Source: Myxococcaceae bacterium
GTDB lineage: Bacteria; Myxococcota; Myxococcia; Myxococcales; Myxococcaceae
Assembly (NCBI GenBank): GCA_004173515.1
Contig: SECN01000001.1
Location: 1-64,000, forward strand
Reading direction: 5' to 3'
Length of the DNA: 64,000 nt
Positions within the stretch are counted from its first letter, which is position 1, and each line of letters starts with the position of its first letter. The position numbers and the translations under genes are program-made. The notes under the pieces were generated by a model. The model was not told where the DNA came from and ran no database searches. It saw only the letters and a list, made by a program, of their open reading frames with translations. Positions 44,218 to 51,004 of this stretch are shown here, in pieces.

Positions 44218-44306
44218 CCCCGGCAGGGGGTGAGGAGAAAAAAGGGGTCATTTCGTTGGGTGGGGGCAGGCGCGAAACCAGCGCCCCCATCCAAGGAGCA
44301 GCACCC

Positions 44307-46214
44307 ATGTCCCCACGCCTTCGTTCCGTCGTCCGGCTCACCGCCGTGGCCGCCGCGACCTTCAGCGTCGGCGCTTCCGCGCAGACCTATGCCTTTCCCG
44401 GCAGCAGCGCGGACCTCCCCGACGGCGGCCATTGGTGGATCTCCAGCGACCACGACGGCACGGAGAACCGGGACCTCAAGGCCGCGCGCTTCGACACCAC
44501 CACCAGCAGGTTCACCGGCGTGAAGCTCCCCTTCGCGGACTACGCCGTGAACCCCAAGAACTCCGACTGGGTCATCTACGGACTGCCCGTCTCCGCCATC
44601 GCGGACGGCGAGGTCATCACCTGCTGGCGCAACGCCCCGGAAGGTCTCAAGCCCGCGGTCCACGGCGGCGACGACGTGCCGCACCCCGGCCGCACCGCCA
44701 ATCCGCCCATCATCCCGCGCTCCGGCAACCACCTGAACATCCGCACGTCCGACGGGAAGGTCATCCTCTACGCGCACCTGCAGCCGGGCACCATCCCGGA
44801 GGCGCTGTGCCCCTTCAATGACACCTACGTGGCGGACGCCGAGGACCGCGTGGGTGACCTTCCCCGCGAGGTGATGGTCCCCACCGCGCAGCGGGCCTTC
44901 GTGAAGCGCGGGCAGTTCATCGGCCGCGTGGGCAGCTCCGGCGCTTCCTCGGGGCCGCACCTGCACGTGCACCTGAAGCCCATGCTGAGCGAGACGACGA
45001 TGGGCGAATCCCTGCCGCTGACCTTCTCCCAGGCGTGGCAGAAGAACGGGGCGGTGACGTACGACTCGTCGCTCGACTTCGTTCCGCTGCGCTCCGAAGC
45101 CCTCAACCAGTTCCCCTCCGCCATCCACCCCGACCCCCTGCTGCGCCGGGGCTCCATCACCGGTGACCCGGCGATGGAGGTGGCGATGACGTCCTCGGGC
45201 GACACGGTGGTGACCGCCACGCGCGACGTCTCCGGGCGGCTGGCGATGGGCTCCTGGCGGCTCGCGGGGGATGGCACCTTCACGAAGCTCCACGGCGCCA
45301 CCACCACGGACGCGTCCACCTACGTGTCCATCGCGAACCCCGGCCTGGGCCGCGACGTGGTGACGGCCGCGCGGGACGCAGACGGCAAGCTCAAGCTCAT
45401 CGCGTGGCGCGTGTCGTCCGGCGGCAGCTTCACCCGGCAGGCGGAGGGGGGCGGGGACGTGGTCTCCAGCCAGATGGCGCTCGCGTCCATGCCGGGCGGG
45501 AGCCTGGGTGTGGTGAGCGCCGTGCGCGATTCGGCGGGCCGCTTGAAGGTCAGCACCTGGGAGACCTCCTCCACCCTGGACACCTTCACCCGACGGGGCA
45601 ACGGCTTCGGTGAGGATGCCACGCACGTCTCGCTCGCGGCCGTCGCCAATGGCCGCGTCGTGGGGGACGTGGGCAGCAGCTTCAAGGGCGTCGTCACGGC
45701 GGTGCGCACCCCGGCCGGCAAGCTGAGCGTCACGGCCTGGGAGATCGGCTCCACGGGCCTGGTCTACAAGCGCGGCACCTACCTGGCCGGCGACGTGGCG
45801 GACGTGGCCATCAGCAGCATGTCCATCACCAACGTGCGGGACCTGGTGGTGGTCAGCGCCCGGCTGCCCACGGGCGTGCTGCGCAACATCTCCTTCGACA
45901 TCACCACTTCGGGACAGCTCCTGCGCCGCGACGACGAGGACGCGGCCGGCGTCCTGGACGTGCAGGCGGCGCGGGTGGTGGGGCAGCACCTGGTGACGTC
46001 GGTGCGCGACTCGGCCGGCAACCTGCGCGTGTTCACCTGGGACGTGGACGCGAACAGCCAGGTGCACCGCACCGGCCAGGAGCTGGCGGGCGACATCCTG
46101 GACGGCATGGCGCTCACCTCCACCTATGTGGGCGCCCGCTTCGTCATCTCCGCCGTGCGCCTGGCCTCCGGCGGCGACGTGCGGCTCATCGCCTGGGACG
46201 CGAACCTTCCGTAG
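44307..46214 (+). CDS. Secreted M23 peptidase with seven-unit propeller-like domain
   Basis: This 635-aa protein has GGAG eight bases before ATG 44307 and a signal peptide ending VGASAQ. Residues ~30-250 contain an M23/LytM endopeptidase domain: GNHLNIRTSDG with the first zinc His, YAHLQPG, GRVGSSGASSGPHLHVHLK with the catalytic HxH. These cleave peptide cross-links of cell walls. Residues ~290-635 contain seven related units around 'VVTAxRDxxGxLxLxxW' (DADGKLKLIAWRV, DSAGRLKVSTWET, TPAGKLSVTAWEI and so on). Seven units fit a propeller. Together they suggest a secreted wall-lytic enzyme with a binding propeller, useful to a predator. Confidence 0.8.
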   Translation: MSPRLRSVVRLTAVAAATFSVGASAQTYAFPGSSADLPDGGHWWISSDHDGTENRDLKAARFDTTTSRFTGVKLPFADYAVNPKNSDWVIYGLPVSAIADGEVITCWRNAPEGLKPAVHGGDDVPHPGRTANPPIIPRSGNHLNIRTSDGKVILYAHLQPGTIPEALCPFNDTYVADAEDRVGDLPREVMVPTAQRAFVKRGQFIGRVGSSGASSGPHLHVHLKPMLSETTMGESLPLTFSQAWQKNGAVTYDSSLDFVPLRSEALNQFPSAIHPDPLLRRGSITGDPAMEVAMTSSGDTVVTATRDVSGRLAMGSWRLAGDGTFTKLHGATTTDASTYVSIANPGLGRDVVTAARDADGKLKLIAWRVSSGGSFTRQAEGGGDVVSSQMALASMPGGSLGVVSAVRDSAGRLKVSTWETSSTLDTFTRRGNGFGEDATHVSLAAVANGRVVGDVGSSFKGVVTAVRTPAGKLSVTAWEIGSTGLVYKRGTYLAGDVADVAISSMSITNVRDLVVVSARLPTGVLRNISFDITTSGQLLRRDDEDAAGVLDVQAARVVGQHLVTSVRDSAGNLRVFTWDVDANSQVHRTGQELAGDILDGMALTSTYVGARFVISAVRLASGGDVRLIAWDANLP

Positions 46215-46328
46215 GGGGTGTCCGCCCCCGAGCACCGCCTCGGGGATTTGCCCGGTTTGCGCGACTCCACCTTGCCGCGTGGGAGGGATTCAACGACCAT
46301 CGGCGCCCTTTCCCGGAGGGGATGCATC

Positions 46329-46874
46329 TTGGAGCTGCGACACGGCCACTCCGCGGGGGCCTCGCCGGACGCCGGGCTGGACACGCTGCGGCGCGACCTG
46401 GAGAGGGCCCTCGCCCGCGTCTGCCCTCCGTCCCTCGCGGACCGGCGGGACGACCTGCTGCAGGTGGCGATGATGCGGGTGGTGGAGCTGCGCAAGCGGG
46501 ACCCGGAACACGCGGCCCTCACGCCCGCGTACCTGCACCGGGTGGCGTACACGGCGCTCATCGACGAGCTGCGCCGGGTGAACGCACGCAAGGAGGTGGC
46601 GCTGGAAGAAGTGGAGCAGGCGCCCGTGCAGCCCGTGGCGCCAGGAGACCCTGAGCGTTCGGCCGGCGCCGCGCAGATTGCCCGGGCCGTGCGCGACTGC
46701 CTCCAGGGCCTGGTGCAGGACCGCCGCCTCGCCGTGACGCTGCACCTTCAGGGGCACACCATCCCGGAGGCCGCGGAGCTGCTGGGCTGGGAGAGCAAGC
46801 GCACCGAGAACCTCATCTACCGCGGACTCAGCGCCCTGCGCGCCTGTCTCTCCATGAAGGGAATCGCGCCGTGA
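46329..46874 (+). CDS. ECF-type RNA polymerase sigma factor
   Basis: Region 2 (DDLLQVAMMRVVELRKR, YLHRVAYTALIDELRRVNAR) and region 4 (VQDRRLAVTLHLQGHTIPEAAELLGWESKRTENLIYRGLSAL) identify a sigma-70 family member. I chose TTG 46329 because a GGAGGGG lies seven bases upstream and the protein then begins LELRHGHSAGASPDA; this gives 181 aa. GTG 46218 would add 37 residues that do not look like part of the family. The stop overlaps the GTG of the anti-sigma-like gene (GTGA), so the pair is coupled. It heads an operon that ends in a CHAT protease. Confidence 0.8.
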   Translation: MELRHGHSAGASPDAGLDTLRRDLERALARVCPPSLADRRDDLLQVAMMRVVELRKRDPEHAALTPAYLHRVAYTALIDELRRVNARKEVALEEVEQAPVQPVAPGDPERSAGAAQIARAVRDCLQGLVQDRRLAVTLHLQGHTIPEAAELLGWESKRTENLIYRGLSALRACLSMKGIAP

Positions 46875-47572
46875 GCGGACACCGCCCCGAGGATGACGCC
46901 ATCGACGACGCGGGGGTGGAGCGCCTGCGGACGGCCCTGCGCGAAGAGGACGCGGTGTCAGGGGCGCCGGTGGACGCGGACCTCGTCTGGCGGGCCGTGA
47001 TGAAGGAGCTGCCGGCGGAGGAGCGCCGGGCGGTCATCGAGCGCGTCGCGGCGGATCCCGCATGGGCCCAGGCCTGGCGTCTGGCGGTGGAGCTGTCCCG
47101 TGCTGCGGCGAAGGTGGAGGCCCCGGCGAAGGTGCTGTCGCTGACGGACCGCAAGGCGAAGCGGTCCTGGCAGGGCCGTCCCGCATGGGTCGCGATGGCG
47201 GCGGTGTGGGTGGTGCTGGCGGGCGTGGTGGTGGTGCTGCGGCAGCAGCAGGGCAAGGACCCGGAGCGGATCCGCGGAGGCGAGGCCGAGGCCATCACCT
47301 CCTCGGTGCCGGAAGCCACCGCGCTTGCCCGCGACGGCTTCGTGTTGCGCTGGAGTGGCGTGCCCCAGGCCACGCAGTGGAGCGTGCAGGTGTCGTCGGA
47401 GGACTTGAAGCTGTTCCACCGCGTGGAGCGGCTGGCGCAGCGGGAGTACACCGTGCCGGCCCCGGTGCTGGCGGAGCTGCCCTCGGGGGCGAGGGTGCTC
47501 TGGCAGGTCGAAGCGCGGTTGCCGGATGGAAGCGTCCGGCGAAGCAGCACGTTCGTGAACCGGTTGCAGTGA
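46871..47572 (+). CDS. One-TM anti-sigma-like protein with periplasmic FN3-like domain
   Basis: The 233-aa product has a cytoplasmic helical part (residues 1-~100, ELPAEERRAVIERVAADPAW), one TM segment (residues ~105-122, WVAMAAVWVVLAGVVVVLR) and a periplasmic ~100-residue beta domain (FVLRWSGVPQATQWSVQV, VLWQVEARLPDGS). The beta domain is FN3-like. There is no zinc-binding HxxxCxxC motif of classical ZAS anti-sigma factors. Its position, overlapping the sigma gene by four bases, and its topology point to a membrane anti-sigma factor that senses something outside. It is 50 bp upstream of a secreted protein gene. Confidence 0.65.
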   Translation: MSGHRPEDDAIDDAGVERLRTALREEDAVSGAPVDADLVWRAVMKELPAEERRAVIERVAADPAWAQAWRLAVELSRAAAKVEAPAKVLSLTDRKAKRSWQGRPAWVAMAAVWVVLAGVVVVLRQQQGKDPERIRGGEAEAITSSVPEATALARDGFVLRWSGVPQATQWSVQVSSEDLKLFHRVERLAQREYTVPAPVLAELPSGARVLWQVEARLPDGSVRRSSTFVNRLQ

Positions 47573-47622
47573 GCGCGCGGCAGGGGCCGCGTCCAATCCA
47601 AGACAAGGCAGAGGGGGCTGTG

Positions 47623-48114
47623 ATGAAGACAATCAATGCGAAGGCTGGATGGGTGCGGGCGTTGGCGGTGGCGACGCTCCTGTGGGGCGTCACGGCGGCG
47701 GCGCAGGCCGCGCCCCTGCCGACCACCGTGGTGACGACGGAGGTCCTGACCGGTTCGGCGAACGACATGGTGGAGGCCTCCATCGATGACGTGGGCGTGC
47801 CGAGCACGGGGCAGGCGGTGCCGGTGACCTTGCGCATCCTGGGCGAGGGGGACGTCGTGCTCGCGACCGTCACGGGGACCGTGAGCACGGGGTCCCCCCT
47901 GCGGGTGAGGGCCCGGGCGCCCTCGGCGGCCGGTGTCCGCGCGCAGCTCATCCTGCATCCGAGCCGCGTGCGGATGGCCGCCGGCGTCCTGACCCTCGAA
48001 CGGGAGGCGCCGCGTGATCCACCTCGGAAGACCGTTTGCGTGGCGGCCAAGGACCCGAACACCACCATGCCGGAGCCCATCACGATGTACTGCTGGGTGG
48101 AAGTCGAGGAGTGA
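47623..48114 (+). CDS. Secreted small protein in the CHAT operon
   Basis: A 163-aa protein is translated from ATG 47623 and has a signal peptide (residues 1-~29, WVRALAVATLLWGVTAAAQA). The mature part is a beta-sandwich-like domain of ~100 residues (AVPVTLRILGEGDVVLATVTG) and a C-terminal piece with two Cys residues (KTVCVAAKDP, TMYCWVEVEE) that may form a disulfide. No known family is recognised. It ends two bases before the start of the CHAT protease, so it could be its inhibitor, substrate or chaperone. This is inferred from position only. Confidence 0.6.
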   Translation: MKTINAKAGWVRALAVATLLWGVTAAAQAAPLPTTVVTTEVLTGSANDMVEASIDDVGVPSTGQAVPVTLRILGEGDVVLATVTGTVSTGSPLRVRARAPSAAGVRAQLILHPSRVRMAAGVLTLEREAPRDPPRKTVCVAAKDPNTTMPEPITMYCWVEVEE

Positions 48115-48115
48115 C

Positions 48116-51004
48116 GTGTCCGGAGGGCGGCGACAGCGCGCGAGGCGACCGGGGCTGCTCACCTTCGTGGTGGGGCTGACCCTGTGTTGCCTCGCGGGGG
48201 CCGCCCCTGCCTCGGAGCCCTCGGCGCTGGCCCGGTGCGAGGAGGGCTTCCTCGCCCACCCGGAGGGCTCCGAAGCGGCGATGTGCTTCTTCCGCGAGGC
48301 CCAGGGCCTGGAGGGGCGCGACGAGGCCCGGCGCAGGCTCCAGGGGCTCATCGCGCGCCATCCGGACCGCCCCTGGCTCACGCTGGTCCTGGGCCACCTG
48401 GAGCTGCTGTCCGAGCCGCGCCAGGCCGAGGCGTCCTACCGTCACGCGGCCCTCGCGTTCCGGCGCCTGGGGGACGCGGAAGGCGAGGTGATGGCCGGCC
48501 TCAACCTGCGCAGCGTGCTGGGGATGCTGGGCCAGACGGAGGAAGCGCACCAGTGGGTCCTGCGGGTGGGCGAGGTGGCCCGGGCCTCCGGTGACGCGCG
48601 CTTGCAGGTGCGAGCGCTCATCCTGGAGGCAGCCGAGCTCTCCGACCTGGGCCAGGACCTGGGGCGCGCCTATCTGCTGCTCAAGCGCGCGGAGGCCCTC
48701 ACCTTTCCCGGGGGCACCGACGGCATGAAGAAGCAGCTGCTGAGTCCCCTGGCCACGGTGAGCGTGAACCTGGGGCGCCTGGACGAGGCGCTGGACGCGT
48801 ATGGGAAGCTCGCGGAGCTCGCGCGGCGCACCCGGGACGCGGGCACGGAAGCGCGCGTGCGTCTGGCCGTGGCGAACCTCGCGCTGCTGCGACACGAGGA
48901 GCGCCCCGAACCGGGAGGCCGTCCGGAGCTGCTGCGGCTCGCGCGGGAGGCGCTCGCGGCGGCCGAGCGCGCGGGCAGCAAGGCCTTCGAGGCGATGTCC
49001 CTGCGCCTCGTGGCGGAGCTGCTGGGCGACGGTCCCGGGGAGCGGCGCGAGGCGGAGGCGTTCCTGGAGCGCTGCATCGACCTCGCACGGACGACGGGGC
49101 TGCCCGAGCGCCGCATCTCCTGTCTGTGGACGCGCGCCGAGCGCCGCGCCCGGGTGGAGGCCACCGCCGCCGACGCCGAGCGCGACGCGGACGAGGCCCT
49201 GCGCCTCGCCGCCGAACACGACAACCCGCTCTACCTCGCCCCGGCCTGGAGGGCGCACTCGATGGTGGCCTTCCGCACGCGGCCCCTGCCGGAGGCGCTG
49301 CGAGAGGCGGAGCGCGCGCTCGACGCGGTGGAGGTGCTGCGCCAGTCGCAGCGCGACGCCTCCAGCCAGGCCGAGCTGTTCTCCGGTTGGGCCAGCGACT
49401 ACCACCGGCTCGCCGGCCGCACGCTGGAGGCCGGCGAGGCCTCCGTCGTGCCACCCCGGGAAGCCCTGGAGCGCGCCTTCACCGTGAGCGAGCGCCTGCG
49501 GGCGAGGACCCTGTTCGAAGCGCTCCTGGCTTCCCGTGCGCTCGCCGCCGGGGAGGACGCGCCGGAGCGCCGGGAGCAGCGGGCCCGCGTGCTGCGCGAC
49601 CTGTCCGCCACCCAGCGGCGGCTGCTCGCGAAGGAGCTGCCCGCGTCCGAGCGCACGCGCCTGCTGGGGGAACTCCAGGAGCTGGAGCGCCGGGAGCAGG
49701 AGCTGCGTCCCGCGCCCCGGCATGCCGCGGTCCAGTTCGCCTCGCTGGAGCAGACGGAGCAGCGCCTGGGCGACGACGAGGCGCTGCTCGTCTTCCTCGT
49801 GGGCGCGGACCAGGACCTCCAGGGCGAGCGAGCGGGAGGCGCGTGGGTGCTGGCCGTGACCCGCGAGGGCACGCACGCGTACCGCCTCCCCGAACGTGCC
49901 CGGCTGCGTCCCGCGGTGGCGCTGCTGTCGGGCCTCATCGAGCGGCGTGACGGTTCGGAGGCGGGGGCCGCCGCCGCGCTGTATGCGCAACTGCTCGGCC
50001 CCGCGCTGCGGGAGCTTCCCCCGCGCGTGTCCCGCCTGTTGTTGGTGCCGGATGGGCCGCTGCATGACCTGGCCTTCGCCGCGTTGAGGGAGCGCCCGGA
50101 CGGTCCGCCGTTGATGGCCCGGTATGAACTCGCGCTGGTGCCCTCCGCGAGCCTGCTGCACCACTGGAGGGAGCGGCCCGCGCGACCTCCGGGAGGCCAG
50201 GCCCTGGTGCTGGCGGATCCGGACCGGAACGCCACCCCGGCGGCCCCGACGGTGGTGGCCACCGCGCGAGGCGGCGTGTTCGGTGAGACCGCGAACCTGG
50301 GCGCGCTCCCCGAAGCAAGACGGGAAGGGCACACCGTGGAGGCGTCCCTGGAGGACACCGCCGTGAGGCCGCGCCTGCTGGTGGGCGCGGAGGCCTCCGA
50401 GCAGGCCCTCAAGGCCACCGCGTTGGACGACGTGCGCATCCTCCACCTGGCCGCGCACGCCGTCGTCGACGTCGAGTCCCCCGAGCGCTCCGCGCTGGTG
50501 CTGGCCCCGGGCGCATCACAGGAGGACGGTCTGCTCCAGCCCCGGGAGATCGCGGAGCTGAAGCTGCGGGACGCGCTGGTGGTGCTCTCCAGTTGCCAGG
50601 GCGCGTCCGGCGCGCTGCTCGCGGGGGAGGGCGTGCTGAGCCTCGCGCGGGCCTTCTTCGAGTCCGGCGCCCGCGCGGTGGTGGCGAGCCTGTGGCCGAT
50701 GCGCGACGCCGAGGCCGCATGGCTGCTGGAGCGCTATTACAGACATCTGGCGCGGGGACAGGGCGTGTCCCAGGCCCTGCGCTCCGCCCAGCGCGAGGCC
50801 TGGGAGGACGGTCAGCCCGCGGCCGCCTGGGCGGGGCTGGTGGTGATGGGAGACGCGGCGCTGGTGCCCGTGCCTTCGCACCGCGCGGAGGTCGCATGGC
50901 CCATGGACCCCGCGTGGTTCTGGAGGGGGTTCGCGCTCCTCGGCGGCGGCATCCTGGTCGCGGGTGGCTTCTGGCGGTGGCGGAGGGCCCGCTCGAAGGC
51001 GTGA
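48116..51004 (+). CDS. Secreted, membrane-anchored TPR-CHAT protease
   Basis: This 962-aa protein starts at GTG 48116, one base after the previous stop. It has a signal peptide (GLLTFVVGLTLCCLAGAAPA), ~500 residues of tetratricopeptide-type helices and then a CHAT domain. The CHAT domain has H781 in LHLAAHA and C827 in LSSCQGA, the catalytic pair of caspase/separase-like proteases. A single TM segment and basic tail close the protein (FALLGGGILVAGGFWRWRR, residues ~940-956). The topology puts the protease in the periplasm. Most TPR-CHAT proteins are cytoplasmic, so this one is unusual. It is the last gene of the sigma/anti-sigma operon, and its target is unknown. Confidence 0.8.
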   Translation: MSGGRRQRARRPGLLTFVVGLTLCCLAGAAPASEPSALARCEEGFLAHPEGSEAAMCFFREAQGLEGRDEARRRLQGLIARHPDRPWLTLVLGHLELLSEPRQAEASYRHAALAFRRLGDAEGEVMAGLNLRSVLGMLGQTEEAHQWVLRVGEVARASGDARLQVRALILEAAELSDLGQDLGRAYLLLKRAEALTFPGGTDGMKKQLLSPLATVSVNLGRLDEALDAYGKLAELARRTRDAGTEARVRLAVANLALLRHEERPEPGGRPELLRLAREALAAAERAGSKAFEAMSLRLVAELLGDGPGERREAEAFLERCIDLARTTGLPERRISCLWTRAERRARVEATAADAERDADEALRLAAEHDNPLYLAPAWRAHSMVAFRTRPLPEALREAERALDAVEVLRQSQRDASSQAELFSGWASDYHRLAGRTLEAGEASVVPPREALERAFTVSERLRARTLFEALLASRALAAGEDAPERREQRARVLRDLSATQRRLLAKELPASERTRLLGELQELERREQELRPAPRHAAVQFASLEQTEQRLGDDEALLVFLVGADQDLQGERAGGAWVLAVTREGTHAYRLPERARLRPAVALLSGLIERRDGSEAGAAAALYAQLLGPALRELPPRVSRLLLVPDGPLHDLAFAALRERPDGPPLMARYELALVPSASLLHHWRERPARPPGGQALVLADPDRNATPAAPTVVATARGGVFGETANLGALPEARREGHTVEASLEDTAVRPRLLVGAEASEQALKATALDDVRILHLAAHAVVDVESPERSALVLAPGASQEDGLLQPREIAELKLRDALVVLSSCQGASGALLAGEGVLSLARAFFESGARAVVASLWPMRDAEAAWLLERYYRHLARGQGVSQALRSAQREAWEDGQPAAAWAGLVVMGDAALVPVPSHRAEVAWPMDPAWFWRGFALLGGGILVAGGFWRWRRARSKA

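Follow-up and report, generated by a model that had tools for sequence, protein, structure and literature searches.

A four-gene operon of a Myxococcaceae bacterium encoding an ECF-type sigma factor, a predicted membrane anti-sigma factor, a small exported protein and an exported, membrane-anchored CHAT protein

The window, i.e. the whole stretch of 64,000 nucleotides of Myxococcaceae DNA that was analysed, contains four closely packed genes on its forward strand. The genes, and the features within and before them to which we refer below, are as follows.

46271..46302, + strand: conserved block before the sigma gene, possible promoter (aligned upstream regions of relatives)
46329..46874, + strand: predicted ECF-type sigma factor, 181 aa, TTG start
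46871..47572, + strand: predicted membrane anti-sigma factor, 233 aa, GTGA overlap with the sigma gene
47174..47242, + strand: transmembrane segment of the anti-sigma factor, residues 102–124 (hydropathy)
47273..47275, + strand: codon of Arg135 of the anti-sigma factor, candidate cleavage site in the juxtamembrane linker (alignment, disorder)
47623..48114, + strand: exported beta-sandwich protein, 163 aa
48116..51004, + strand: exported TPR-CHAT caspase-like protein, C-terminally membrane-anchored, 962 aa
48116..48211, + strand: signal peptide of the CHAT protein, about residues 1–32 (h-region 14–26, AxA-like site, conserved)
49970..50854, + strand: CHAT domain, residues 619–913
50456..50458, + strand: codon of the catalytic His781
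50594..50596, + strand: codon of the catalytic Cys827
50927..50971, + strand: C-terminal transmembrane segment of the CHAT protein, about residues 938–952, basic tail inside

The original prediction of four overlapping or nearly touching genes was reproduced in a check of the open reading frames, with junctions of −4, 50 and 1 bp between the sigma and anti-sigma genes, the anti-sigma gene and that of the exported protein, and the latter and the CHAT gene, respectively. That the four genes form one functional module is, in our view, almost certain. The upstream neighbour (44256–46214) codes for a protein that resembles M23-type peptidases and whose N-terminus looks like that of an exported protein; it is likewise located upstream in Corallococcus praedator.

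Judged by its sequence, the product of the first gene is clearly an ECF-type sigma factor. Profile searches against Pfam and NCBIfam returned TIGR02937 (3.3e-14, 52.8 bits; cut-off 42.9) as well as Sigma70_r2 and Sigma70_r4_2 above the Pfam cut-offs, regions 2 and 4 being the only ones present, as in ECF sigma factors. An alternative GTG start at 46218 is also open upstream of the TTG codon; the latter is preferred because it is preceded by a GGAGGGG box and agrees with the conserved start in relatives. When four genomes were searched for a regulon by means of the conserved block, no sites were detected except the upstream region of this operon itself; one copy each was found in the genome of the window and in G052, i.e. 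in two of the four genomes, both preceding the operon.

The predicted role of the second gene product is to hold the ECF sigma factor. Hydropathy and the AlphaFold2 (AF2) model indicate a helical cytoplasmic N-terminus resembling zf-HC2 but devoid of zinc, one transmembrane (TM) segment, and a periplasmic FN3 fold; together with the adjacent ECF gene, the N-terminal anti-sigma domain and single TM segment correspond to the layout of class I (ASD/zf-HC2) membrane anti-sigma factors. The FN3-like periplasmic domain proposed earlier is backed by the model, in which about residues 139–233 reach a pLDDT of approximately 95 or more, and by FN3 domains of the PDB, which were matched at Z-scores of up to 10.1. 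Neither this protein nor the 163-aa exported protein matched any Pfam family. The diverged homologues of the anti-sigma factor, which match zf-HC2 and, weakly, fn3, possess a zf-HC2 finger and a TM segment like other zf-HC2 (ZAS) anti-sigma factors; unlike these, the window protein has a degenerate finger without the Cys ligands, and the periplasmic part is an FN3 domain or, in the fusion proteins described below, CHAT itself.

Residues 121–138 of the anti-sigma factor, which directly follow the TM segment, are disordered in the AF2 model (pLDDT <50). Of 26 non-redundant homologues that were aligned, 24 have R at the position of Arg135 in this linker, a level not approached by any other linker position, and an alignment-free count revealed a peak of R at a fixed distance from an invariant Trp (13/26, as compared to at most 5 elsewhere). 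Many proteases of clan CD cut after Arg or Lys, which makes Arg135 a candidate cleavage site; however, its role may be structural instead. If the CHAT protein cuts the anti-sigma factor, the disordered linker is more likely to be the target than the folded FN3 domain behind it. Two anti-sigma factors encoded close to a CHAT gene, albeit outside its operon (L159, L180), also carry an Arg at or near the equivalent place, which counts against the cleavage reading. A juxtamembrane motif, R-x-L-E-x-R-x-S, is common to TPR-type anti-sigma factors with and without fused CHAT (L075 2485–3354; L070, L073, L074).

The CHAT domain of the fourth gene product aligned with positions 4–289 of the 289 of the Pfam model (7e-61). 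His781 and Cys827, the pair described as intact in the original prediction, are both present, and the His and Cys residues are conserved in each of the 44 CHAT proteins in which both positions could be read; the majority of these proteins are ECF-linked, exported or fused. The claimed signal peptide and C-terminal anchor likewise proved to be general properties: all 17 orthologues have a signal-peptide-like N-terminus, and 16 of them a C-terminal TM segment followed by a K/R tail. TPR repeats N-terminal to the CHAT domain gave only weak matches in the window protein (0.0027, below the cut-off), and are clear in the relative L062. Similarity to Csx29 was weak (0.0025, 16.7 bits, as compared to a cut-off of 300), which places the protein outside that family. 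A reading of the CHAT protein as part of a defence system was rejected, the PADLOC matches to BovA being weak only. The genome of the window harbors a total of ten CHAT genes. In Corallococcus praedator CA031B (G008:C737, L042 11780–19057), two fragmentary copies of the 3′ end of the CHAT gene lie downstream of it, each copy bearing a HamA gene (DUF1837, Hachiman-type) with no adjoining helicase gene seen, which looks like a defence-gene insertion accompanied by duplication of the CHAT 3′ end.

The 163-aa protein possesses a signal peptide and two Cys residues, Cys139 and Cys157, that are invariant in an alignment including the counterparts from L127 and L128, which were recognised by their signal peptide, beta-rich body and C...P...C tail. 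It is the fastest-evolving product of the operon, with a mean pairwise identity of 0.49 versus 0.75–0.82 for the CHAT protein and the sigma factor. Its AF2 model is a beta-sandwich (pLDDT 82), for which fold searches retrieved only generic beta-sandwiches (GOLD-like, CBM-like, and protease-attached jelly rolls; best Foldseek E-value 2.6e-3, Z at most 7.9), so that no inhibitor family could be named. In Pyxidicoccus caerfyrddinensis, a locus comprising L116 5285–8784 contains the genes of the small exported protein and CHAT without those of a sigma and an anti-sigma factor, the full operon being located elsewhere in the genome (L120). Since it is found there with CHAT alone, the small protein is most likely a partner of the CHAT protein.

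The four-gene order was sought in relatives of the window and found in 16 of the 16 with a fully covered operon, always with the −4 overlap and with a last gap of 1–4 bp; the neighbourhood is thus conserved, whereas a lack of conservation would have refuted the original prediction. Most members of the genus have an orthologue of the CHAT protein, as do a few other genera. Among 75 genomes searched with both the CHAT protein and the anti-sigma factor, 20 contained both, none contained CHAT only, and two (G069, G073) contained the anti-sigma factor only; the latter two have a diverged CHAT gene beside the anti-sigma gene, and if these are counted in, presence matches perfectly. G013, a member of the genus lacking CHAT, also lacks the anti-sigma factor, and in G045 CHAT is reduced to a remnant and a full anti-sigma factor is absent. 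This short remnant (L050 8962–9449), which shares about 77% identity with the window protein and is without a sigma/anti-sigma pair, represents a decayed copy of the operon. The correlation of the distance matrices of the sigma factor, anti-sigma factor and CHAT protein was moderate (0.44–0.63) and was not taken as proof.

A profile scan of species genomes detected relatives in Corallococcus, Myxococcus and Pyxidicoccus, and, at 25–40% identity, in Acidobacteriota, deltaproteobacterial metagenome-assembled genomes (MAGs), Paraliomyxa, and a Steroidobacter MAG. In the closer half of these relatives, nearly every locus has a homologous anti-sigma gene as well as an ECF gene at most 2 kb away. 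The trio of ECF, TM/FN3 anti-sigma and CHAT genes is present at the acidobacterial, deltaproteobacterial, Paraliomyxa and Steroidobacter loci, and the gene set spans two bacterial phyla. Its arrangement varies: the genes are divergently oriented in L059 and L060, ordered CHAT-ECF-anti-sigma in L063, and ordered ECF-anti-sigma-CHAT with a lipobox-like start of CHAT in L062, L067 and L068. Among the diverged loci, the third gene of the operon is present in L127 and L128 and absent from L130 and L138. A larger exported protein is encoded in its place in L064–L066, for which neither the profile of the window's secreted protein nor Pfam gave a match, so that there is no tie at the sequence level.

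A natural fusion links CHAT to anti-sigma function. On contig C537 of the genome of the window (L072), an ECF gene is followed by a gene for a 998-aa protein consisting of a zf-HC2 finger (1.2e-6, above the cut-off), a TM segment near residue 72, TPR repeats and a CHAT domain (2.9e-17). The same zf-HC2-TM-TPR-CHAT fusion follows an ECF gene in two other genomes examined (L190, L225). The anti-sigma profile moreover matches the N-termini of about 20 more open reading frames of 1000–1180 aa, some of which were checked for their identity as CHAT fusions. Since a cytoplasmic location is expected of the finger, the CHAT domain of the fusion should lie outside, supporting an outer location of CHAT. 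The fusion gene belongs to a second CHAT-ECF cluster (L072 983–2950 and 2956–6539), in which a gene for a 656-aa CHAT protein directly precedes the ECF and fusion genes.

Forty Myxococcota CHAT genes, hand-picked for genome spread and leaving out orthologues of the window protein, were sampled to view the family more widely. The assumption that TPR-CHAT proteins are usually cytoplasmic fails for Myxococcota, approximately 16 of the 40 having an N-terminal hydrophobic segment. An ECF gene lies within 2.5 kb of eight of the 40, as compared to an expectation of about 4.5%, i.e. about two (binomial P ~4e-4); ECF linkage is therefore a property of certain CHAT groups, and the idea that all Myxococcota CHAT genes are ECF-linked was rejected.

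The operon suggests that bacterial caspase relatives relay envelope signals to genes. In what we regard as the best single mechanism, to which we would give an even chance of being correct, the CHAT protein would perform the site-1 cleavage of the anti-sigma factor in the periplasm. The ECF sigma factor would be kept at the inner membrane by the one-TM anti-sigma factor, and the TPR-CHAT protein, tethered by its C-terminal TM segment with its body in the periplasm, would sense an envelope condition by means of its TPR part and would probably be gated or otherwise regulated by the small beta-sandwich protein. Once active, CHAT would cut the juxtamembrane linker, the candidate site being after Arg135, and general site-2 and cytoplasmic proteases would finish the anti-sigma factor, resulting in release of the sigma factor. 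Regulated proteolysis, as surmised in the original prediction, is consistent with the shared operon, the export and intact dyad of CHAT and conservation far beyond the genus, and has become more plausible through the fusions and the linker Arg; these two, the conserved dyad and the precedent of Craspase (see below) also single out the site-1 role. Against it stand the location of a caspase-like Cys protease in the oxidising periplasm, which would be out of the ordinary though not without precedent, and the lack of an adjacent ECF gene for most CHAT proteins of the Myxococcota sample; besides, CHAT and anti-sigma genes would equally be expected in one operon if CHAT were a product of the regulon.

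The latter possibility is the main rival, although we consider it rather unlikely. CHAT and the small protein would then be the output of a system in which the anti-sigma factor senses stress via its FN3 domain and the sigma factor switches on its own operon, the exported protease being directed at other envelope or foreign proteins and the small protein serving as inhibitor or chaperone. Sigma/anti-sigma operons are commonly autoregulated and often carry genes of the regulon; the separate pair in P. caerfyrddinensis indicates that the small protein and CHAT can act apart, and many SP-TPR-CHAT proteins lack an ECF neighbour. However, the occurrence of the anti-sigma finger, TM segment and CHAT in one chain is hard to square with CHAT as a mere output, and the trio has been kept together across phyla despite rearrangement. 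The large TPR-like region, the membrane anchor and the FN3 domain, a typical binding module, would also suit a CHAT protein that is not proteolytic at all and signals as an anchored sensor or scaffold by binding the FN3 domain or the small protein. This we deem improbable, because the dyad is intact in every readable CHAT protein even at about 30% identity, pointing to selection on catalysis. Accidental or merely positional clustering, for which nothing speaks beyond the abundance of ECF genes (58 matches in the genome of the window), is refuted by the conserved order and junctions, the co-occurrence and the fusions, and has hardly any probability left.

In type III-E CASP systems (Craspase; Cas7-11-Csx29, Csx30, CASP-sigma), a TPR-CHAT protease cleaves an inhibitor of an ECF sigma factor, whereby inhibition of the latter is relieved (PMC10028731). 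In both systems, a TPR-CHAT gene adjoins that of an ECF-like sigma factor and that of the protein inhibiting it. Craspase, however, works in the cytoplasm as part of a CRISPR effector and is triggered by RNA, and Csx30 has not been described as a TM anti-sigma factor, whereas the CHAT protein of the window operon is exported and anchored, its anti-sigma factor has TM and FN3 parts, and a small exported protein is added; no cas genes were noticed among the neighbouring genes read. In the genomic surroundings of ECF54 sigma factors, CHAT, subtilase or carboxypeptidase genes are found, and proteolytic control has been proposed for these sigma factors (PMC8999054). They thus share with the window the adjacency of ECF and CHAT genes, but they are described as lacking an anti-sigma factor, with an actinobacterial example, and the passage on them does not discuss CHAT export (PMC8999054), whereas a TM anti-sigma factor is encoded in the operon and in its orthologues. 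To speak of a new kind of regulated proteolysis, as had been suggested, is therefore too strong.

The one-TM anti-sigma factor with a periplasmic domain and a held ECF sigma factor is also reminiscent of regulated intramembrane proteolysis of the RseA/DegS/RseP type (RpoE, RsiW, RsiV, RsiP), in which a site-1 cut in the periplasmic part would start release. The site-1 proteases of those systems belong to other classes (DegS-type serine protease, signal peptidase), in contrast to the caspase-like Cys protease considered here, for which the papers retrieved contain no description in such a role. Nor did a literature search, beyond whose reach many subscription papers lay, retrieve a paper describing an exported CHAT protein with a TM anti-sigma factor. 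We tentatively propose, while rating it somewhat below an even chance, that the operon belongs to a branch of transmembrane signalling that is widespread but has not been described before. In this branch, caspase-like CHAT proteases of the periplasm would make the site-1 cut in ECF anti-sigma factors, acting in trans in the four-gene operon and in cis in the zf-HC2-TM-CHAT fusion, which would cut itself; Craspase would be a cytoplasmic offshoot of an older CHAT/anti-sigma/ECF theme. If true, bacterial caspase relatives would have a defined function, open to testing, beyond immunity and cell death; anti-sigma control would gain a further class of protease, and the Craspase arrangement would have an evolutionary origin. 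The operon is present in one strain of Myxococcus xanthus (L122), a tractable species, which makes direct testing possible.
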